From: Parasphingorhabdus cellanae
Lineage (GTDB): Bacteria > Pseudomonadota > Alphaproteobacteria > Sphingomonadales > Sphingomonadaceae
NCBI RefSeq assembly: GCF_017498565.1
Contig: NZ_CP071794.1
Coordinates: 2,780,001 to 2,844,000 of the forward strand
Length of the DNA stretch: 64,000 bases
Direction of reading: 5' to 3'
The notes under the pieces were generated by a model, which ran no database searches, was not told where the DNA came from, and was given only the letters and a program-made list of their open reading frames with translations. Of the stretch, positions 10,979 to 27,249 are shown in pieces. Numbering within the stretch: position 1 is the first letter of the stretch; each line of letters begins with the position of its first letter. A program made the translations under genes and the position numbers.

Positions 10979-13900
10979 ATGCATAAACTTCTCGCCTGCA
11001 CCAGTCTTACCCCGATATTGTTAGTTGCCGCTGGCCCCGTTCATGCCGAAACCGTGATCGACAGCGCGCGCACCACGCCGATTGCGACGAGCGATAACAA
11101 TGATGATATCCGGATCACCAACAAAGGTTCGATCAAGCCAACCGGCGGCACCGCCGTGATCATCGACAGCAATCATGATGTTACAAACGAGGGCACCATC
11201 CAGATTACCGGAGCGGATAGCGCCGTCGGGATTTCTGCCGAAACCGGTACCTCTGGAACCATTACCAATAGCGGTTCCATCATCATCGATGAAGATTATA
11301 CCCCGAAGGATTCCGACGATGATGGTGATCTGGATGGTCGGTTTGCTAACGGTAAGTTCCGTTTTGGTATTGGAACAGAAGGAGGGTATTCCGGTGCAAT
11401 CGTAAATAGCGGCACGATAACGATTGAAGGCAATGATAGCGCTGGAATTTATCTCGGAGACCGGCTCGATGGCTCGCTAAATCACAGCGGCCAGATCACA
11501 GTGACCGGGGATGACAGTGTTGGGATAAAAACAAGTGATGTGGCTGGCGACGTAACAGTGCGCGGTTCTGTCGCTGTGCGCGGTGAAAACGCAGTCGGCG
11601 TGGCGATTTGGGGTCAAGTTGAGGGTGGGTTGCTAATCCAAAATACGGTCACTGCATCGGGCTATCGTAGCACAACGCGACCAGGCGATGTGTCAAAACT
11701 GGATGCTGATGATTTGCTGCAAGGCGGTCCGGCGATCGCCATTTATAATGATGTTGCGGACGGAATATTTTTTGATGTTCGACCAGAAAATACCGACCCG
11801 AAAAACAAGGATGAAGATGGCGACGGCATTGATGATGATAAAGAAGGCAATGCGTCCGTCACCTCCTATGGCGAAGCTGCGGCTGTTCAAATCGGTTCGG
11901 CGACTAATACGGTAACTATCGGCGAAGTAAAAAACGATGAATCTGAGGGCAATGGCATCTTCAATAACGGCAGTATCCGCGGTCTCGGGGTTTATGAGGG
12001 CGTGGCTGCGAATGCTCTTGTTATTGGTGGTCTTGGTGGCGCGACAGAAATTGTCGGTGGTATCCTAAACAGAGGCTCGATCAGCGCTGTGTCTCTTGAC
12101 GATGATGCTACGGCGATCCGTATTGGTGACCGCGCCACTATGGTACAGATTAATAACGATGGCGAAATCGTCGCTAGTGGCGGTAGTGCCGCCGACACGG
12201 CTGTTTATGCCATTCTGGTAGAGGAGCGTGGCGCGCTTGAAGGGATCTACACTACGAAAAAGATTAGCGCCACAGCAGCGAAAGACGGGCAAGCGGGGGC
12301 GATTATTGACCGCTCGGGTACGCTGGAATTTGTCTTTAATAGCGGCACGATTGAAGCGATAAGCGAAAATGGTGGTGAAGGGAAAGCCGTTGCAATTGAC
12401 CTTTCCAACAATAATAACGGCACAGAAATCGCTCAATTTAGAAACTCCTCGCAATCCCCGGCGCCCGTAATTATTGGCGATATCCTGCTCGGTTCGGGGG
12501 ACGATTTTGTCGGTAGTGCAGCGGGTCGGATAGAGGGGCGGCTGGATTTTGGTGGCGGCTTCGACGAATTTGAATTGGAAAAAGGCGCGCAATTTACCGG
12601 TTGGCTCAGTCAGGCAGCAGGGACGGATATCACCATAAACGATAGTTCGATGCTGCTGACCGACACGGGGACAATTGACATCAATTCCATCGTTACCGAG
12701 AATGACAGCACCATCGGCGTCACTATTGATGGCAAGTCTGGCAAGTTCACACAATTGAACGTTGCGGATACGGCTGAATTTGGCGAGGGAACCAATCTCG
12801 AAATCCAGTTAGTCAGCGTCAGCGAGTCTGAAGGCCGTTATCAGATTGTCGATGCGAATAATCTGGTCGGCAGTGAAAATCTCGCACAAGACGGCGTGGT
12901 TACGGCCTATATGTTCAAGAGCAGCGTGACTGGCGATGATGACGAGGGTGCTGTCTGGGTTGATATCAAACGCAAGACAGCAGAGGAACTGAAGCTCACC
13001 CGATCGCAAACCAGCGCATATGACGCGATCTTCAAGGTGCTCGACAATGATGCGGCGGTGTCCTCCAGCTTTCTCGGTGCGACAACGGCAGAGACTTTTG
13101 ACGAAACAATTCAGCAAATGCTGCCGGACCATGCGGGCGGCGTGTTTGCGACGGTCAGTCAGGGTTCGCGCTCTACCGCGCGCTTCCTGACCGATCCGGT
13201 TGCGCCCTATAGCGATCAGGGCGGCTGGGGTTTCTGGCTGCAACAGACCGTTTGGGGTGTTTCCAAGGATCGCGGTCAGACGGATAGCTACGATATTACC
13301 GGTCTCGGTACGACTGCGGGTATAGAAGTCGAAACCGGCAGCATCGGCAATTTCGGTGTTTCGTTCGGTTATCTGAACAGCAATGACAGCGATGATGACG
13401 CGGCCAATGAAGTGGATAGCGATCAATATGAATTCGCGGCCTATTGGCGTGCGCGTTGGGGTGGCCTCCGCGCTTTTGCCAGAGGCTCCTACGCCAAGGT
13501 CGAATTTGATTCGCAGCGCCGGTTTGAGTCTAAAATTGACGGAGATGATAAGACAGAACGCCGCTTTGCCGTCGCTGATTGGTCTGGTGATCTTTACAGT
13601 TTTGCTGGCGGGCTGGCCTATGAAATGGATATTGGTCGGGTTTCCCTGCGTCCTTCTGTATCGGTCGACTATTATAACCTGTCCGAAGAAGGTTATACCG
13701 AAACCGAGGGCGGCGATGCGTTTAACTTGATCGTGGAAGATCGCGACAGCGACGAGTTGGCACTCAATACCACATTGGCGGCGGCGCTGAACTTCGGTGA
13801 TACAGACCCCGATGGTGTCTGGTTCCGGGCCGAGGTCGAAGGCGGCTATCGTCAGATTATTGGTGGCGATATCGGTAATACGACAGCGAAATTCAAAGAT

Positions 13901-14071
13901 GGTGATGCGTTTACACTGTCCCCTGATACCCGAACCGATGGCTGGCTCGCCGGCGTTCGGCTGGTCAGCGGGACGGGCAATCTGCTCATCGCAGGCGAAT
14001 TCAGTGCTGAAGAGCAGTTACGAGATCATGTTTCATATGGTGCACGGCTGTCGTTGCGGATCGGTTTTTAG
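10979..14071 (+). CDS. Autotransporter with calcium-binding-like passenger repeats
   Basis: A 1030-residue type V secretion protein: signal peptide to about residue 23 (GPVHAE), a long Gly/Asn/Thr-rich passenger of beta-helix type with repeated NxGxI/T elements (SNHDVTNEGTIQITG and similar), and a C-terminal autotransporter barrel from about residue 746 (GGWGFWLQQTVWG) ending in LSLRIGF. Two Asp-rich loops (about residues 104-121 with DSDDDGDLDG, and 272-290 with DEDGDGIDDD) resemble thrombospondin type-3 calcium sites. SD-like AGGACAAGGACC precedes the ATG. It lies 151 bp after the receptor gene and may be a target of the sigma factor, which is inference only. A strong terminator follows. 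Confidence 0.9.
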   Translation: MHKLLACTSLTPILLVAAGPVHAETVIDSARTTPIATSDNNDDIRITNKGSIKPTGGTAVIIDSNHDVTNEGTIQITGADSAVGISAETGTSGTITNSGSIIIDEDYTPKDSDDDGDLDGRFANGKFRFGIGTEGGYSGAIVNSGTITIEGNDSAGIYLGDRLDGSLNHSGQITVTGDDSVGIKTSDVAGDVTVRGSVAVRGENAVGVAIWGQVEGGLLIQNTVTASGYRSTTRPGDVSKLDADDLLQGGPAIAIYNDVADGIFFDVRPENTDPKNKDEDGDGIDDDKEGNASVTSYGEAAAVQIGSATNTVTIGEVKNDESEGNGIFNNGSIRGLGVYEGVAANALVIGGLGGATEIVGGILNRGSISAVSLDDDATAIRIGDRATMVQINNDGEIVASGGSAADTAVYAILVEERGALEGIYTTKKISATAAKDGQAGAIIDRSGTLEFVFNSGTIEAISENGGEGKAVAIDLSNNNNGTEIAQFRNSSQSPAPVIIGDILLGSGDDFVGSAAGRIEGRLDFGGGFDEFELEKGAQFTGWLSQAAGTDITINDSSMLLTDTGTIDINSIVTENDSTIGVTIDGKSGKFTQLNVADTAEFGEGTNLEIQLVSVSESEGRYQIVDANNLVGSENLAQDGVVTAYMFKSSVTGDDDEGAVWVDIKRKTAEELKLTRSQTSAYDAIFKVLDNDAAVSSSFLGATTAETFDETIQQMLPDHAGGVFATVSQGSRSTARFLTDPVAPYSDQGGWGFWLQQTVWGVSKDRGQTDSYDITGLGTTAGIEVETGSIGNFGVSFGYLNSNDSDDDAANEVDSDQYEFAAYWRARWGGLRAFARGSYAKVEFDSQRRFESKIDGDDKTERRFAVADWSGDLYSFAGGLAYEMDIGRVSLRPSVSVDYYNLSEEGYTETEGGDAFNLIVEDRDSDELALNTTLAAALNFGDTDPDGVWFRAEVEGGYRQIIGGDIGNTTAKFKDGDAFTLSPDTRTDGWLAGVRLVSGTGNLLIAGEFSAEEQLRDHVSYGARLSLRIGF

Positions 14072-14396: not shown

Positions 14397-14897
14397 ATGA
14401 AAATGACTAAACTATTGGCAGCATCTGCTGCAGTAGCTGCTTTGGCCGTTGGCGCCCCTGCCATGGCTCAGCAAAATCAAGGCAATGACGTTTATGACAA
14501 TGCAGACTCGCTCGTCATTAACGATCTGCTTGATATCTATCTTGCACAAGATGCCAGCACCACAACTACAGTTGATGACGTTGCCAGCAACAACAATAAT
14601 AACAACGACCTTGTTATTGCTACGCAGACGTTGACTGCCTACAACACCAACTCTCTGATGGACGAACTCGTCGATCTGGATGGTGAAGACGGTACACCAG
14701 CTCCAGTTGGCTACAACAGCGGCGACAACTATGTTCGCGGCAATGCCTTTGCAGCTTTTGCGGGTATCCTGAACCAGTCATGGAACACCGGCATCAACTC
14801 CAACGCTCAGTCTGCAACGAATATTGCAGCACAAGGCACCATCAACTTTGGTGATGGCGCTGCAGCAGCTGAAGGTGGGGCTGGCGGCGGCGATTAA
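14397..14897 (+). CDS. Secreted Asn/Gln/Ala-rich protein, candidate fibre (amyloid-like) subunit
   Basis: A 166-residue protein with a clear Sec signal (cleavage after APAMA, about residue 24) and a low-complexity mature part: a polar start (QQNQGNDVYDN), an Asn run near residue 65, and a C-terminal NTGINSNAQSATNIAAQGTI segment followed by a Gly/Ala tail. The C-terminal segment aligns by eye with one in the next protein (INTGAQSALQAGLAVTINI), so the two are probably related. It has no double-glycine leader motif, unlike its neighbours. Composition and the neighbouring C39 peptidase recall FapB/FapC-type functional amyloid subunits, but I cannot show homology. Strong SD (AAGGAG). Confidence 0.7.
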   Translation: MKMTKLLAASAAVAALAVGAPAMAQQNQGNDVYDNADSLVINDLLDIYLAQDASTTTTVDDVASNNNNNNDLVIATQTLTAYNTNSLMDELVDLDGEDGTPAPVGYNSGDNYVRGNAFAAFAGILNQSWNTGINSNAQSATNIAAQGTINFGDGAAAAEGGAGGGD

Positions 14898-14924
14898 TCG
14901 CTATTCGCTGACGTGATGAAGGTT

Positions 14925-14953
14925 GGGCCGGTTTCCGCCGATGGAACCGGCCC
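14925..14953 (+). other. Intercistronic hairpin between the first two secreted-protein genes
   Basis: GGGCCGGTTTCC (14925-14936) pairs with GGAACCGGCCC (14943-14953) with one bulge and a 6-nt loop. No T run follows, so it is more likely an mRNA-stabilising or partial-termination element that could raise expression of the first gene over the rest. Confidence 0.55.
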
Positions 14954-14997
14954 CTCCATTCCCCAAACATCTGCATCCCCAAACGGGAGTAAAGACG

Positions 14998-15366
14998 ATG
15001 AAAAAGCATTTTTGGCTTCTTATGATAGCCCCCGCCATGACCGCCTCCCATGCGAGCGCGCAGGTCACGGATCAGGACGCTGCGCCCCAGGCACCCGCGA
15101 CTACCGCGCAGCCGTCTGAATCCCCGCTAATGTCGCTCGACGAACTCGATGAGCTGCGTGGCGGCACCCAAGTAGCGATTAACCAACAAACCTTTAACTC
15201 TGAGAATACCGGCAACACGATAGGCGGCGACTTTACCGCCGGCGATGTCAATCTGTCGGACAACTCGCTGTCCGGTTTTAACGGTCTTGGTAATGTAGTG
15301 ATCAACACCGGCGCCCAGTCCGCACTCCAGGCGGGCCTGGCGGTGACGATCAATATTACCGATTAG
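14998..15366 (+). CDS. Secreted protein with double-glycine leader motif, candidate C39 peptidase substrate
   Basis: A 122-residue protein starting at ATG 14998, chosen because GGGAG (14985-14989) is 8 bases upstream and a Sec signal (MKKHFWLLMIAPAMTASHASA) follows at once. After a Pro/Ala-rich linker comes MSLDELDELRGG with the Gly pair at residues 55-56, which looks like the acidic-amphipathic double-glycine leader recognised by C39 peptidases. The 66 residues beyond it are Asn/Thr/Gly-rich and end in INTGAQSALQAGLAVTINI, similar to the end of the protein encoded upstream. Adjacent to the C39 peptidase gene. A structural fibre component or a secreted peptide precursor are both possible. Confidence 0.72.
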   Translation: MKKHFWLLMIAPAMTASHASAQVTDQDAAPQAPATTAQPSESPLMSLDELDELRGGTQVAINQQTFNSENTGNTIGGDFTAGDVNLSDNSLSGFNGLGNVVINTGAQSALQAGLAVTINITD

Positions 15367-15370
15367 GTAA

Positions 15371-15466
15371 GGTATAGGCCATGACCCTCACTTCCCCCAT
15401 CAAAAATGGCCTATACCCAGCCTTTCCGCCCTTCAAGAGCGGCTTGAAATCTTTCTTGAAGGGCGG
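15371..15466 (+). promoter_or_regulatory. Two tandem large hairpins over the peptidase start codon and early coding region
   Basis: First, a perfect 12-bp inverted repeat GGTATAGGCCAT (15371-15382) / ATGGCCTATACC (15406-15417) places the ATG at 15381 in the stem. Second, a perfect 13-bp inverted repeat CCGCCCTTCAAGA (15426-15438) / TCTTGAAGGGCGG (15454-15466) lies just after. No T run follows either. They may reduce peptidase translation, or the real start may be the TTG at 15456, leaving both hairpins intergenic. Confidence 0.6.
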
Positions 15467-16187
15467 ACTGCTGGCCCTGACCGGTGCCAGCCTGTTTTGC
15501 AGTTCCGTCGCGCAATCCGAAGTCCGTTTGGCACGGGAATCGAGTGGCGGAGACTATTATGTCGGCGTCATGACCTGGTGGGATATCCCATTCCGTTCCG
15601 TCATCCGCCAGCGCTATGATTTTAGCTGCGGTTCCGCCGCTGTCGCGACCTTGCTCACCTATCATTACGACCGGCCCACGAGCGAACGGACACCGTTCAA
15701 GGCGATGTGGGATCTGGGCAATAAAGAAGCGATCAAGAAAGTCGGCTTTTCGATGCTCGACATGCGTAACTATCTACAATCCATCGGTTATCGTGCCGAG
15801 GGTTTCAAACTGAAACCCGGGCAGCTTATCCAGGTGAAACGCCCGGTCATAGTGCTGCTCGACATTGATGGGTTCAAACATTTTGTTGTGGTCAAAGGTC
15901 AGACCAGAGATCAGGTGCTGGTCGGCGATTCCGTGCTTGGCATCAACAAATATTCCTATGAGGAATTCCATAAATATTGGAACGGCATTGCTTTGGCCAT
16001 CGTCGATGGTCCGATAACCAAGCGGCCCACCTATAATCTTGCCGGTGACTGGAATCCTTGGTCCACCGCGCCGACCGATCAGGTATCGGCCATGGCTGAC
16101 ATCGGCAATCTAACCAATCACCTTCCCCCCCTGTACCAAATCTCGCCGGAATTTCTTCTCGATGTGCGAGTGGGTACCGTCAGATGA
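15381..16187 (+). CDS. Periplasmic C39-family (double-glycine) cysteine peptidase, FapD-like in context
   Basis: A stand-alone C39 peptidase, not fused to an ABC transporter. Of 268 residues, the catalytic set is visible: Gln77 and Cys83 in RQRYDFSCGSAA, His167 in FKHFVVVKG and Asp183 in LVGDS. A hydrophobic export segment (LLALTGASLFCSSVAQS, about 30-46) suggests action in the periplasm. It is flanked by genes for two secreted proteins with LRGG motifs, its likely substrates. FapD of the Pseudomonas functional-amyloid operon is likewise a lone C39 peptidase. From ATG 15381 the n-region is unusually long; TTG 15456 would give a more typical signal peptide but lacks an SD. Confidence 0.85.
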   Translation: MTLTSPIKNGLYPAFPPFKSGLKSFLKGGLLALTGASLFCSSVAQSEVRLARESSGGDYYVGVMTWWDIPFRSVIRQRYDFSCGSAAVATLLTYHYDRPTSERTPFKAMWDLGNKEAIKKVGFSMLDMRNYLQSIGYRAEGFKLKPGQLIQVKRPVIVLLDIDGFKHFVVVKGQTRDQVLVGDSVLGINKYSYEEFHKYWNGIALAIVDGPITKRPTYNLAGDWNPWSTAPTDQVSAMADIGNLTNHLPPLYQISPEFLLDVRVGTVR

Positions 16188-16197
16188 GAGATAAGCC

Positions 16198-16791
16198 ATG
16201 AGCTACAGACATAGATATTTCGCCACGGTCGCCTGCATCGCGTCCTTCACCGCGATGCTAGTACCCCAGACCGCCAATGCCGACCCCGCGGCGGCGGTCG
16301 GTCTGCCCGCACTTGTTCCGGACGAAGATCTGGACAAGTTGCGCGGCGGGTTCATAGTCAACGGACTGGGCGTCAATTTTGGCGCCGATATCCGCACTTA
16401 TGTGAATGGCGAGTTGCTGCTGCAGACGGTGCTGAACCTCAATGATGATGGCGCACACACCACCCAGACGGCCGCTGCCGGACTGAGCCCGGTCGATGTT
16501 TCTTCGTTGCAAAACGGTGTATTATCCAGTGGCAATATCCGCATGAAGGTCGGCGACACCCCCGTCTATCTATTGAATAACGGGCAAACCGCGATCGTTC
16601 ATGAGACCACCAATGGTGTCCAGAACATGCTGATCAATACGGCCAATGGATTTGAAGCGGTGCAGGAAGTGGACGCGACACTCAATCTTTCCGGATATGA
16701 AAGTTTCAACAACGATCTGATGATGGACCGTATCGGCAGCGCGCTGCAAGATATTGCCGGTCAAGCAGGGATCGGGGCCCTCGGAAACTGA
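16198..16791 (+). CDS. Secreted protein with double-glycine motif, second candidate C39 substrate
   Basis: A 197-residue protein, ATG 11 bp after the peptidase stop, with a Sec signal (cleavage near NA-DP, about residue 29). The motif PDEDLDKLRGG ends in Gly50-Gly51, the same spacing and same acid-Leu pattern as the small protein two genes earlier. The roughly 146-residue remainder is Asn/Thr/Leu-rich with GLGVNFGADI, NNGQTAIVHETTNG and LNLSGYESFNND, giving an alternating hydrophobic pattern that suggests beta structure. No known domain recognised. A terminator follows, so this is the last gene of the cluster. Confidence 0.72.
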   Translation: MSYRHRYFATVACIASFTAMLVPQTANADPAAAVGLPALVPDEDLDKLRGGFIVNGLGVNFGADIRTYVNGELLLQTVLNLNDDGAHTTQTAAAGLSPVDVSSLQNGVLSSGNIRMKVGDTPVYLLNNGQTAIVHETTNGVQNMLINTANGFEAVQEVDATLNLSGYESFNNDLMMDRIGSALQDIAGQAGIGALGN

Positions 16792-16983: not shown

Positions 16984-18045
16984 GTGAAAAGATTGATTGT
17001 GTGCTGCGACGGTACTTGGGAAGGTCTGGATAATGACTGGCCCACCAACGTTCAGCGAATTGCCCAATTCCTGTTACCTTCAGATCAAAATGGCATCGCC
17101 CAGACGCTCTATTATGACCCGGGCATTGGTATGAAAAACGCAGTCGATCGCATTGCCGGGGGTGCCTTTGGTGCGGGTCTCGATCTGCAGATATTGGAAG
17201 CCTATAGCTTTTTGAGCATGAACTTTGAAGCCGGTGATGAAATCTATCTTTTCGGTTTCAGTCGCGGGGCGTATTCGGTGCGTAGCCTCGCGGGGCTTAT
17301 TCGATGCTGCGGTATTGTGAAACGCCGCAAGATAAGAACCATTTCTCGCGCCATGGAACTTTACCGCGATCGCGAAATCAAACCCGACCATGATGAATGT
17401 GTAACGTTTCGCAATTCCAATTCCATTTTGGAAGACAACGCCCCGCCACAGATTTGCTTTTTGGGATGCTGGGATACTGTTGGCGCATTGGGAATTCCCG
17501 ATGCTATTCCGATGCTTCCTGTGGACAACCGGTTTGATCGCAAATATGAATTTCACGACACCCAACTCGGTTCGCACATTAAAAATGCCCGTCACGCTGT
17601 GGCCATTGATGAACATCGCCGCGTATTTGATGTTACATCGATGCAGCAACCCGATAGTAGTCATGATCAAAAAGTGCTGAAAGAACGCTGGTTTCCCGGC
17701 AATCATGGGGGCGTCGGTGGCGGCGTGCGCGATTTACGGCAATGTTCGGATGGACCATTATTGTGGATGATGGAAGAAGCCAAGCATTTCGATCTGGCGT
17801 TCAATGAAAGCGATGTCGGGAAATATACCGAAAGCGATCCTCTCATTGATCTGCCGGCTAAAGAACGCCGGCTATTTGGACTACTTGGCAAATCTTTCGA
17901 TCGACATGGGCCTGTTCGAACTATGGATGTTTCACCCGAAGCGCATCATCGGTGGAATGAGATTGAGAGCTACAATCCCAAGACCCTCCATCGCGTCTAT
18001 CCGCCCAAGGGACAGAAACAACAGTCGACTGCTTCTGCCCATTGA
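16984..18045 (+). CDS. DUF2235-family alpha/beta hydrolase (phospholipase-like)
   Basis: A 353-residue DUF2235 protein, the family that includes Tle1-type phospholipase effectors but also many stand-alone cytoplasmic proteins. I chose GTG 16984 since GGAG (16972-16975) is 8 bases upstream and the conserved opening KRLIVCCDGTWEG follows. The nucleophile motif is GFSRGA (about residues 92-97), with DTVGALGIP and DEHRRVF downstream as in the family. No signal peptide and no type VI secretion gene nearby, so an intracellular esterase role is more likely than effector. Its transcript and the convergent receptor transcript meet at the hairpin at 18082-18109. Confidence 0.88.
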   Translation: MKRLIVCCDGTWEGLDNDWPTNVQRIAQFLLPSDQNGIAQTLYYDPGIGMKNAVDRIAGGAFGAGLDLQILEAYSFLSMNFEAGDEIYLFGFSRGAYSVRSLAGLIRCCGIVKRRKIRTISRAMELYRDREIKPDHDECVTFRNSNSILEDNAPPQICFLGCWDTVGALGIPDAIPMLPVDNRFDRKYEFHDTQLGSHIKNARHAVAIDEHRRVFDVTSMQQPDSSHDQKVLKERWFPGNHGGVGGGVRDLRQCSDGPLLWMMEEAKHFDLAFNESDVGKYTESDPLIDLPAKERRLFGLLGKSFDRHGPVRTMDVSPEAHHRWNEIESYNPKTLHRVYPPKGQKQQSTASAH

Positions 18046-24355: not shown

Positions 24356-25969
24356 TTAAAAGCGGAACGGTATGCGCGCGACGATGCTGACATCCGGTGC
24401 ATCCTCGGTCACACCAAATTGGAAACCGAGGTTCAGCGATTGCTTTTGGCTGAGGCGATAAGACATGCCGAAGTTGAGCGATCCGACCTGGATGTCATTG
24501 CTTTCCTGCAACGTGTCGCCGAGCTGGGTTTTGGTCGAGAATATGTAATTATGACGATAGCCTAGCGAAAAGGAAAAGCGCGGATTAAGCGCAAAGCCAA
24601 AGCCGACGCTGGCGTTGATGGCGTCACCAGGATCAACCTTGCCGACCAAGACATCGCCGACGACCTTGTTGATGTTACGCTCGATATTCCACAAATAGCC
24701 AGTGCCGCCATAGATCACGACCGGGTCGGAAGGGAGCAGGAAGCTGAGGCTGGGCTGCACGCCCCAAAAGCCGGAACCGGTGGCCAGACCGGTTGCCACA
24801 CCAAATTCGTCAAACGGAATTTCATAGGGGCTGGTTCCGGTATCGGTCTTGACGCGCAGGCCGGCGACCCAGATCGGGCTTTGTGGTTTGGGCCGGTTCA
24901 ATTGATAGCGCAGCGAGATTTCCGCGTCACCAATGCCGGTTTCTTCGAGACCAACTTCGCGGGTAATCTGTTCGTCGCGCTGCTGGACAACCTGTATCCT
25001 GTCCTTGCGATAGAGCGCGGGTATGCGACCCTCGATTTCAAGCCGGTTGGTCAGGCCATAGCGCATGGCAAAAGTTCCGATAATGGTATCGCGGTCCGCG
25101 TCACTGGCTTCAATCGCGCCAATTTGAATGCCGGGGATCAACTCAATCCCGCGAAAGACGAGCCGGTTGGTGGAGGATCTGGTATATTCGATCGATGGAT
25201 CGAGCACGAACTGCCCGCGCGGTGTCAGCACGCCTTGTCCCTCTGGCACGGCTTCGACCTTTTGTTCGATATTATTCGCCGCTGGTGGTGCCTCGCCAAC
25301 CGGGCCATCCGGCATGGTCAGCTCGTCATCCGGTGATGTGCCGATTTGCACCGATGCGGTTTCGACCTGGCTGGGCTGAATGCCGGCTGCGCGCATTTGC
25401 GACAGGGCAAAAGGGGTTTCGACCGGCACGGCTGCACGCACCAGTTGATTGTGCAATTCCAGTTGCTTGATCTTGTCATTCTGCGACTGGATCAGCGCAT
25501 TCTGGCTGGCGATCAGCGCTTTCTGTTCCGACAACTCCGATTGGATCGCCTGCAAGGCAGCAGTGATATTGGTTGTTTCCTGATCAGTGACTTTTGCCGC
25601 GGGCTTTTGGGCTGACGCTTGCATTGCCGGTTGTTCTATTGGTGGCTTTTCGGCTTGCGCGATTTCGATCGGCGCCTTCGCAGCCAATGGGGGATTGGCC
25701 GGCGGTTGTTCGATCGGCGCGACGGTCAGCGTGGTTGGAAGTTTCTCTGGCTCCCGCTGCTGCTTTACGACGGGCGATTGCAGCGCCTTTAATCGAGCGA
25801 GGATCCGGGCCGATTCTGCTTCGGCTTCGGCAGCGGTTAACGGGGGTGCAGGGCGCACCTGGTCCGTTGCGGTTTCGTCATCCGTGGCCGCCGAGGCTGA
25901 TCCGCCATAAAAGGCGGCGACAGGAAGGGCGATAAAGGCGGTTAGGGGGATTAAACGTTGGCTAGTCAT
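24356..25969 (-). CDS. Outer-membrane beta-barrel with N-terminal coiled coil (FapF-like architecture)
   Basis: A 537-residue exported protein: signal peptide to about residue 27 (SASAATDD), a Pro/Glu/Ala-rich linker (about 40-125), a coiled-coil heptad stretch (ALQAIQSELSEQKALIASQN, about 133-175), another linker, then a beta-barrel from about residue 245 to the end, with DPSIEYTRSSTNRLVFRG and a terminal ARIPFRF. The barrel resembles the transporter family often labelled MetA-pathway/phenol-degradation. Periplasmic coiled coil plus barrel is also the layout of FapF, the amyloid-exporting pore. With the C39 peptidase cluster 8 kb away this is a plausible partner, but the link is inference. 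Confidence 0.75.
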   Translation of the reverse strand: MTSQRLIPLTAFIALPVAAFYGGSASAATDDETATDQVRPAPPLTAAEAEAESARILARLKALQSPVVKQQREPEKLPTTLTVAPIEQPPANPPLAAKAPIEIAQAEKPPIEQPAMQASAQKPAAKVTDQETTNITAALQAIQSELSEQKALIASQNALIQSQNDKIKQLELHNQLVRAAVPVETPFALSQMRAAGIQPSQVETASVQIGTSPDDELTMPDGPVGEAPPAANNIEQKVEAVPEGQGVLTPRGQFVLDPSIEYTRSSTNRLVFRGIELIPGIQIGAIEASDADRDTIIGTFAMRYGLTNRLEIEGRIPALYRKDRIQVVQQRDEQITREVGLEETGIGDAEISLRYQLNRPKPQSPIWVAGLRVKTDTGTSPYEIPFDEFGVATGLATGSGFWGVQPSLSFLLPSDPVVIYGGTGYLWNIERNINKVVGDVLVGKVDPGDAINASVGFGFALNPRFSFSLGYRHNYIFSTKTQLGDTLQESNDIQVGSLNFGMSYRLSQKQSLNLGFQFGVTEDAPDVSIVARIPFRF

Positions 25970-26002: not shown

Positions 26003-26719
26003 TCAAGCGGCGGATAGCTCGCCGAGGCATAAATCTGCTGCGGGGTGAATGTCGGTGTCGACATCAGGCGTCATGCTGTCCTGATATTCGCCAGCAAGGC
26101 GGCACAGTCCGGCATTATCTGTGATGATCACCGAGTCCCGGCCATTAATTTCGATCAGGCCGCGGCGCGCCAGGTCGGTAAAGGTCCGACTGACCGTGTG
26201 CACCGTAAGGCCGAGGAAATCGGCTATGTCACTGCGCGACATCGGCACAAAAATATTGGGATCATCATTGGCTTGCTGCTTCAGGCACAACAGAAAAGCG
26301 GCCAGTCTTTCAGACGCTGTCCGGTGTCCCATGATGAACAGATAGCGCTGAGCCGTCGACATTGCGCGAAACAATATCGACACCGCTTCGTCCAGTTGCG
26401 GCTTTGGCGTGGAGTCGTCGGTAATGTCGCCGACCCGGTAACAGCGCACGACCACGTCCGTGACCGCCTCTGCTGCGGTGCCATAAGTGCCATGGTCAGC
26501 GCCGAAAACATCGCCGCTGAAAAAGAAACCGGTCAAATGCCGGTGGCCATCCATATGGAATCGGCAGGTGCGAACCGTCCCCTGGATCACTTCGTACCAG
26601 CGGGTGGCTTTCTGACCTTCGTCAAATATCAGTTGTCCTGCGCGAAACCGTAAAGTGGTCGAGCGCAGGTTAGAATGAAGCTCCTGCATCATGGCAGGTG
26701 CGGTGATTAGCGATTGCAT
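26003..26719 (-). CDS. Crp/Fnr-family transcriptional regulator
   Basis: A 238-residue regulator with a cyclic-nucleotide-binding-like sensor domain (RFRAGQLIFDEGQ, TGFFFSGDVFG) and a C-terminal winged helix with MSRSDIADFLGLTVHTVSRTFTDLARRGLI. The N terminus lacks the cysteine cluster of oxygen-sensing Fnr, so it is closer to FixK-type. ATG (complement of 26717-26719) is preceded by GAGGAG; the frame extends 24 codons upstream but without an SD. It sits 34 bp ahead of the outer-membrane barrel gene on the same strand and may be co-transcribed with it. Confidence 0.88.
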   Translation of the reverse strand: MQSLITAPAMMQELHSNLRSTTLRFRAGQLIFDEGQKATRWYEVIQGTVRTCRFHMDGHRHLTGFFFSGDVFGADHGTYGTAAEAVTDVVVRCYRVGDITDDSTPKPQLDEAVSILFRAMSTAQRYLFIMGHRTASERLAAFLLCLKQQANDDPNIFVPMSRSDIADFLGLTVHTVSRTFTDLARRGLIEINGRDSVIITDNAGLCRLAGEYQDSMTPDVDTDIHPAADLCLGELSAA

Positions 26720-27249
26720 CCGTGCTGTCTCCTCTAAGACTTCAGCACGACCCGATTTGTTCAATCCGCGTCGATATTCCCAGAATATCAACCCGGCCTC
26801 AGATGCGACCTTCTTGTTGTTTTGTGGGGATTATGTAGGGCAGCGACCCGGTAATCGTCCATCCAGCGATTCGCCTGTTTCGAACGCCAAGCGATTCTCC
26901 CTGCTGATTTTCACTAAGTAATTTTACCTATGGAATCCTGCGACTTTGTAAACTACCGTAAATTCAAGCAGTTGGCATGGACGTTTTTGTCCTATCCCGA
27001 TTCTGTGGTATGAGAGTAGAAGTAAAACATCGCCGAACCACATAGTCATGGCGATGAGAATTACTGCGACGATTTGTTGGGGAGGGAACAACCAACAATT
27101 TATTCAGTCAGCCTGTTCGGGCTGCGCTATGTTGCGACTGACGTCTGCGTGCAGGAATAGTGCCGCGGGTGTCCAAAAGACTGATCAAATGGGGGCATTT
27201 GTTCGTCGGCAGGGTTCTATTCTGTCCGATACTATAGAAGGTAGGCCTC
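26720..27249. other. 530-bp intergenic region with a 17-bp inverted repeat
   Basis: Divergent promoter region for the Crp/Fnr gene (minus) and the small LuxR gene (plus). The only clear structure is GATATTC-CCA-GAATATC (26774-26790), about 55 bp upstream of the Crp/Fnr start, a possible operator. An 86-codon open frame at 27048-27308 looks non-coding. Otherwise I see nothing. Confidence 0.5.

Follow-up and report, generated by a model that had tools for sequence, protein, structure and literature searches.

The gene cluster and its stand-alone peptidase

We analyzed a stretch of 64,000 nucleotides from Parasphingorhabdus cellanae (NZ_CP071794.1, positions 2,780,001 to 2,844,000; called the window below), which contains a putative secretion system built around a stand-alone cysteine peptidase of the C39 family. 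Four closely spaced genes lie on the + strand in the order P1, P2, peptidase, P3. P1 (14397-14897) is an ORF (open reading frame) for an Asn-rich, Sec-type secreted protein of 166 amino acids (aa). P2 (14998-15366) and P3 (16198-16791) encode Sec-type secreted proteins of 122 and 197 aa respectively, and the peptidase gene between them (15381-16187) encodes 268 aa with an N-terminal signal segment. Signal peptides were called by eye and with a crude hydrophobicity rule; in the mechanical ORF list P2 starts at a TTG at 14923, upstream of 14998. A fifth gene, located on the - strand (24356-25969), encodes a FapF-type outer-membrane channel of 537 aa. An initial annotation of the window had described the peptidase and its two flanking proteins; P1, the channel and a related tag in FapE, the subject of a later section, were absent from it. 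The search of P1, P2 and P3 against Pfam and NCBIfam returned no model above cut-off. The best named relatives come from Sphingorhabdus, Parasphingorhabdus and uncultured Sphingomonadaceae records.

The peptidase scores 69.2 bits with the Pfam C39 model PF03412 (cut-off 22). Cys83, His167 and Asp183 occupy the positions given in the initial annotation, and they are accompanied by Gln77, which we take to be the C39 oxyanion position. None of the four residues varies in any of the 39 aligned relatives. The AlphaFold2 model of the protein has block means of pLDDT (predicted local distance difference test) of 93-98 in the core, and its best Foldseek matches are to the PCAT1, ComA and leader-bound 6mpz peptidase domains (E 2e-9 to 9e-8). 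With these C39 ABC (ATP-binding cassette) exporters the window peptidase shares the fold, the catalytic residues and the shape of the leader of its presumed substrates; it differs in that no transporter is fused to it and in that the substrate would arrive via Sec behind a signal peptide. The earlier claim that the peptidase has no ABC transporter at its side holds for the eight ORFs that were scanned around it, which sets it apart from a bacteriocin-type exporter with its fused or adjacent transporter. A search of the host genome with the peptidase gave a single match at E<=0.001.

Among the NCBIfam models FapD (NF058616) is the best, with 154.8 bits, and FilB the second, with 103.6 bits; the curated cut-offs are 330 and 475 respectively. 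Because it stays under the cut-off, the protein is not FapD by the curated standard, and its sequence is best described as FapD-like. The FapD-type relationship that had been suggested initially is thus borne out, though at this lower score.

The channel is related to FapF in a similar manner. It reaches 136.3 bits with the NCBIfam model NF058560, under the cut-off of 700, and 66.5 bits with the FilC model, under the cut-off of 630; the FapF structures 5o67, 5o65 and 5o68 in the PDB are matched with E values of 1.1e-29 to 8.4e-29. In locus L002 and other relatives the FapF-type gene is located directly after P3 and faces it. In the window the two are separated by a Tle1-like gene and, judged by eye, by a TonB-receptor gene and regulators. 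A FapF-type match was present in 35 of 40 fetched stretches, the match in L009 being a 45-residue piece at the end of the locus; the window's own FapF gene lies outside its fetched stretch (L167).

Leaders of the double-glycine type in P2 and P3

The initial annotation had noticed the motif L-D-x-L-R-G-G in both flanking proteins, and this reading is correct: R-G-G ends at residue 56 in P2 and at residue 51 in P3, in each case after the Sec-type signal. The P2 leader MSLDELDELRGG (residues 45-56; 15130-15165, + strand) is predicted to be cut after Gly56, which would release a mature part of 66 aa from T57. For the P3 leader VPDEDLDKLRGG (residues 40-51; 16315-16350, + strand) the predicted cut is after Gly51, and the mature part of 146 residues would begin at F52. 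Bacteriocin double-glycine leaders follow the consensus LSxxELxxIxGG, with hydrophobic residues at -12, -7 and -4 and G at -2 and -1. In P2 and P3 the two glycines likewise come after hydrophobic residues at -12, -7 and -4. As far as the sequences tell, both tags have the shape of a bacteriocin double-glycine leader, but they are located behind a Sec-type signal.

Conservation was examined in 40 loci, 30 in named records, nine in further genomes and one in the window. Of these, 39 are distinct, since L023 and L125, which give the same tblastn values, apparently come from a single genome. P1 (by tblastn), P2 and P3 are each present in all 40, so that both partners named in the initial annotation are conserved together with the peptidase. 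In a frame-checked count, R-G-G followed by F is kept in P3 at 40/40 loci, and R-G-G is kept in P2 at 37 of the 40; the conservation of the tag is therefore more than chance. An alignment of 29 P3-type proteins, some of them just 17-28% identical to P3, has R49, G50 and G51 as its sole invariant columns. This alignment took 29 of 32 P3-type references (L020, L103 and L143 were left out), and the invariance is limited to these 29, with L144 (T-G-K) and L146 (RGG) outside the reference list. The mean pairwise identity of the leader exceeds that of the preceding linker both in P2 (0.58 vs 0.24) and in P3 (0.54 vs 0.21, on a set with seven out-of-frame rows and five loci missing).

In the AlphaFold2 model of P3 (mean pLDDT 71.2), residues 42-48 form a helix, residues 49-51 are unstructured and strands begin at 52. 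With low confidence in the leader, the model would show the anatomy expected of such an element; a PDB match to the P3 fold at E<=0.001 was not found. A matrix trained on P3-family leaders ranked P3, itself a training row, first among the 890 stop-to-stop frames of the window (35.6) and P2 second (23.2); the next frame scored 12.3.

The reading that we favor, with a probability of about 0.74, is a variant of the Fap type: after Sec export, the C39 peptidase would cut off a double-glycine-type leader in the periplasm. P1, P2, P3, the FapD-like peptidase and the FapF-like channel would together form a system for secretion and assembly. All three secreted proteins would pass the inner membrane by Sec and shed their signal peptides, after which P2 and P3 would retain a second leader of the form hydrophobic, S/P, x, x, E/D, L, x, x, hydrophobic/Q, R, G, G. 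The peptidase would recognize this leader in the periplasm, in the way known from bacteriocin C39 domains in the cytosol, and cut after R-G-G. Once freed of the leader, P2 and P3, the latter as the FapE-like partner, would be able to engage the channel of the FapF type and exit the cell. P1 may be the unprocessed main subunit, with P2 and P3 as minor subunits for nucleation or anchoring.

Processing in the periplasm after Sec export had already been proposed in the initial annotation and is the best reading of the data. Its description there as a logic different from that of bacteriocin export does not stand as something new in itself, because FapD acts in the periplasm, where its Cys is required for FapC secretion (PMC5557850), and because periplasmic cleavage has been proposed for the gonococcal Nap island (PMC11798529).

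The mature part of P2 contains 15.2% Asn, 12.1% Thr and no Lys or Arg, and the Asn/Thr-rich character assigned initially to the released parts thus agrees with the composition. As weak evidence, this composition seems to suit a fibre subunit more than a cationic bacteriocin. The mature P2 family matches the C-terminal part of the P1 family (hhalign 94.9%, E 4.2e-8); P1 and P2 are thus related to one another, with P1 devoid of an R-G-G leader. A match between mature P2 and mature P3 (61.7% over 28 C-terminal columns) is suggestive only.

These properties bear on an alternative, namely a bacteriocin- or Nap-like system whose released products P2 and P3 would be bioactive peptides and not fibre parts. 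The nearest precedent is indeed the Nap island (NapP, NapF and NapABC), which combines a stand-alone C39 peptidase, a FapF homologue and double-glycine peptides (PMC11798529), and the small size of mature P2 would fit such a product. The Nap substrates are, however, cationic lytic peptides of <10 kDa, while mature P2 is free of positively charged residues (0% K/R) and mature P3 is 146 aa long. Furthermore, the loci of the RGG type contain an upstream Sec-type protein with at least 8% Asn, often repetitive, in 33 of 39 cases, although this survey took the most Asn-rich candidate per locus and had no control. We consider the release of bioactive peptides very unlikely.

A matching site in FapE

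The matrix trained on P3-family leaders was also used on other proteins of the loci, with p values from 400 shuffles and a threshold of p<0.01; both gene copies in L104 and in L096 enter the cluster counts separately. In L104 the P2-peptidase-P3 unit occurs as a tandem duplicate with identical peptidases, about 2.9 kb apart. The search detected the leader in 26 of 41 P2-cluster proteins and in all 27 FapE-cluster proteins, in the latter as RG[KR]|[FY]. The 27 FapE proteins have G at -2 (27/27), R at -3 (23/27), L or M at -7 (27/27), D at -10 (26/27), K or R at -1 (27/27) and F or Y at +1 (27/27), and their leader is more conserved than the preceding linker (mean pairwise identity 0.52 vs 0.13). 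One FapE of this set scores 336.5 bits in NCBIfam, over the cut-off of 250; the other rows are FapE by clustering and position.

A comparison of 137/449 peptidase-adjacent ORFs with 14/6778 other ORFs in a Fisher test includes training rows and near-copies. The cleaner test is a held-out matrix, which was built from 54 leader words of the window clade with nothing after the cut and was applied to 67 loci outside this clade. It found matches in 59/293 peptidase-adjacent ORFs vs 10/4320 others at a threshold of 12, in 50/293 vs 5/4320 at 14 and in 44/293 vs 1/4320 at 16. At the highest threshold 41 of the 67 loci contained an adjacent match, and 20 of the matches were FapE. Profiles of the region from the leader to +60, with signal peptides removed, align P3-type proteins with FapE at 95.6% (hhalign, E 1.1e-8, 29 columns); the similarity covers the leader plus roughly the next 17 residues.

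The site in FapE agrees with what is reported on Pseudomonas. In 4 of 5 Pseudomonas-type FapE rows it is located at residues 40-50; the fifth has it at 78, with a longer mechanical start. According to PMC5557850, FapA-D are unprocessed and only FapE lacks peptides in its first ~70 residues, a region that includes residues 40-50. The same paper (2017) calls the target of FapD unclear, with FapE suspected; it states that Fap proteins have no canonical C39 sequences, while GG and GA motifs are noted in FapE and FapF. In PMC12822426 FapD is still only "thought to" process FapE. A statement of the leader described here was not found among the literature matches listed, in a search that had subscription papers mostly outside its reach. 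Since R-G-[K/R] before F/Y matches the leader, FapE is the predicted substrate of FapD in the canonical Fap system.

Several results weigh against the favored reading as a whole. The three remaining P2 proteins of the 40 loci read SSG, RGR and RGS, and 15 of the 41 P2-cluster proteins miss p<0.01, several of them with G-R, G-K, G-Q or G-M. The P3-trained matrix fails on 2 of 26 P3-cluster rows (L144 and L146), and an adjacent match to it at 14 bits is missing in 12 of 107 loci, including the Fil-like ones. FapE has K or R instead of G at -1, and the classical Gly-Gly rule is for this reason not satisfied there. The profile match to FapE disappears once the leader of P3 is removed (2.1%), and homology between mature P3 and mature FapE is absent (0.3%). 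Because of this drop from 95.6%, the part that P3 and FapE appear to share is the processing region, and not clearly the rest. Finally, homology of the mature P1, P2 and P3 families to FapB or FapC was not detected (0.0-3.3%), which leaves the assembly into fibres, as suggested in the initial annotation, an analogy only.

The basic residue at -1 in FapE would also fit a different function of the leader, namely that of a docking tag. The C39 protein would bind it uncut and act as a chaperone that delivers P2 and P3 to the channel. The inactive C39-like domain of HlyB is said to bind in this manner, with no cut. A chaperone role of C39-like domains has also been discussed for FapD (PMC6173800). 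Against such a role stands the full conservation of Q77, C83, H167 and D183 in the 39 aligned peptidases, and the FapD mutant C38A abolishes FapC secretion (PMC5557850). We consider a docking tag of this kind quite unlikely and the leader as probably removed by cleavage.

A third possibility, which is compatible with the favored reading, concerns the channel. In this case the peptidase would act on P3 and on the linker of FapF, thereby opening or closing the channel, and P2 would be secondary. In 26 of the 35 FapF-type frames from relatives (L002-L031, L125-L133), the linker contains R-G-[TAS]-G preceded by a hydrophobic residue, with FALSQMRGTGIQ and PLDMFRGTGMG as examples; two of the frames (L015 and L016) are wrongly cut. 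Processing of the FapF linker was proposed in PMC5557850. The leader matrix, on the other hand, detects only 5 of 100 FapF proteins at p<0.01 and 23 of 100 at p<0.05, the window's own FapF reads RAAG at the linker position, and five canonical FapF rows (L091-L095) have no degenerate copy. With so few FapF proteins reaching p<0.01, gating of FapF by a degenerate leader copy is only a guess, and we judge this division of labor rather unlikely.

Other candidate substrates were rejected with the same matrix and threshold. The leader was found in 0 of 15 P1-cluster rows and in 0 of 53 rows of the FapB/FapC cluster, where a few frames may be incorrect. FapA has by eye a leader-like sequence, LSDGDFASVASG, yet 0 of 5 rows reached the threshold. 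Two proposed homologies were also discarded. Full-length P1 matched FapC with 92.4% over 46 N-terminal columns that include the signal peptide, and full-length P2 matched FapB with 39.1%; once signal peptides were removed, both values fell to 0.2-3.3%.

Relatives, neighbouring genes and known systems

A tree of 85 peptidases, rooted at midpoint only, has a branch (support 97/98) that separates off the 27 sequences from FapE loci. The window peptidase belongs to another group, of 47 rows (97/91), together with those of other RGG-type loci. The Fil-like peptidases are outside both groups. According to this tree, the peptidases of the window type are distinct from the ones found in canonical Fap loci. 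On the tree the RGG-type label needs five changes, not one. L010, L012, L014 and L018 are labelled "other" solely from unclustered neighbours, and all four have P2 and P3; L163 has a K-R-G-G neighbour of its own, and L115 lacks both partners. On the basis of the peptidase grouping and of the upstream Asn-rich Sec-type proteins mentioned above, the RGG-type loci seem to follow a common plan made up of an Asn-rich leaderless protein, P2, the peptidase, P3 and a channel of the FapF type.

At the level of the order, 47 of 296 genomes drawn contain a peptidase match at E<=1e-6, and five of these 47 match only in frames of 509-766 aa that resemble ABC exporters. At the level of the phylum, a FapD-model match at E<=1e-15 occurs in 39 of 398 genomes, eight of them over the cut-off. 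In 2013, PMC3792158 confined Fap to Beta-, Gamma- and Deltaproteobacteria; PMC6173800 adds other genera with Fap and describes fapD-fapF pairs from five additional phyla.

The window system has the following in common with Fap of Pseudomonas (FapABCDEF): a periplasmic C39 peptidase of the FapD type, a channel of the FapF type, Sec export of the parts and, in FapE, a leader of like shape with an R-G-x-[F/Y] site. It differs in that a true R-G-G leader is found on each flanking partner, in that its proteins do not match FapB or FapC and in that peptidase and channel score below the curated FapD and FapF cut-offs. The Fil system of Acinetobacter (FilA, FilB, FilC) resembles it in having a C39 peptidase (FilB) and, by NCBIfam, a FapF-like channel (FilC); FilA is named as one of the fibre proteins on the cell surface of Acinetobacter sp. 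Tol 5 (PMC11784438). The window proteins differ by falling far short of the FilB and FilC cut-offs, and the FilB-like loci L118-L121 have DUF6160-type Sec-type neighbours with T-G-Q in place of R-G-G, as assessed by eye and from one scanned protein. These four T-G-Q rows miss p<0.01 with the P3 matrix. Sec-type neighbours with T-G-Q or T-A-G were seen by eye at the C39 loci with FapF- or FilC-like channels in L118-L121 and L164-L166.

The remaining features of the window surround the cluster. The Tle1-like gene between P3 and the FapF gene (16984-18045) is of the phospholipase type (PF09994, 270.8 bits), and partial matches to it follow P3 in some of the close relatives (L003, L004, L005, L007, L008 and L009). 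A CRP/FNR-like regulator gene, recognized by eye from its translation, is located immediately upstream of the FapF gene (26003-26791, - strand). Upstream of P1 lies an autotransporter gene (10979-14071; PF03797), which we left out of the system because it was matched near the cluster in only 3 of 30 named relatives (L003, L004 and L016). Between P1 and P2 a GC-rich inverted repeat without a T-run was seen by eye (14925-14953); it could set separate levels for P1 and for P2-peptidase-P3. A scan for promoters and terminators gave counts close to those of shuffled sequences.

The data invite a broader and more tentative reading, whose odds we put at a little short of even. A Sec signal followed by a double-glycine leader would be the entry code for FapD/FapF-type secretion throughout the Pseudomonadota. 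One lineage of periplasmic C39 peptidases would read an R-G-x-ending leader on one or two partners, and the cut would license export of fibre subunits across the outer membrane through a FapF-type barrel. The R-G-K/R leaders of FapE, those of P2 and P3 and the T-G-Q and T-A-G leaders at Fil-like and other loci would then be variants of a single code, and degenerate copies in FapF linkers would let the same enzyme gate the channel.

On two plasmids, most genes beside related peptidases carry the annotation "hypothetical protein", as do most of the named P3 homologues. The cluster represents a secretion system with little annotation, which occurs in sphingomonads and also in families that belong to other classes. 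The variant in the window is valuable chiefly because it keeps an undisguised double-glycine leader, by which the matching site becomes visible in all 27 FapE-cluster proteins; the leaders of P2 and P3 thereby point to a probable processing site in canonical FapE.

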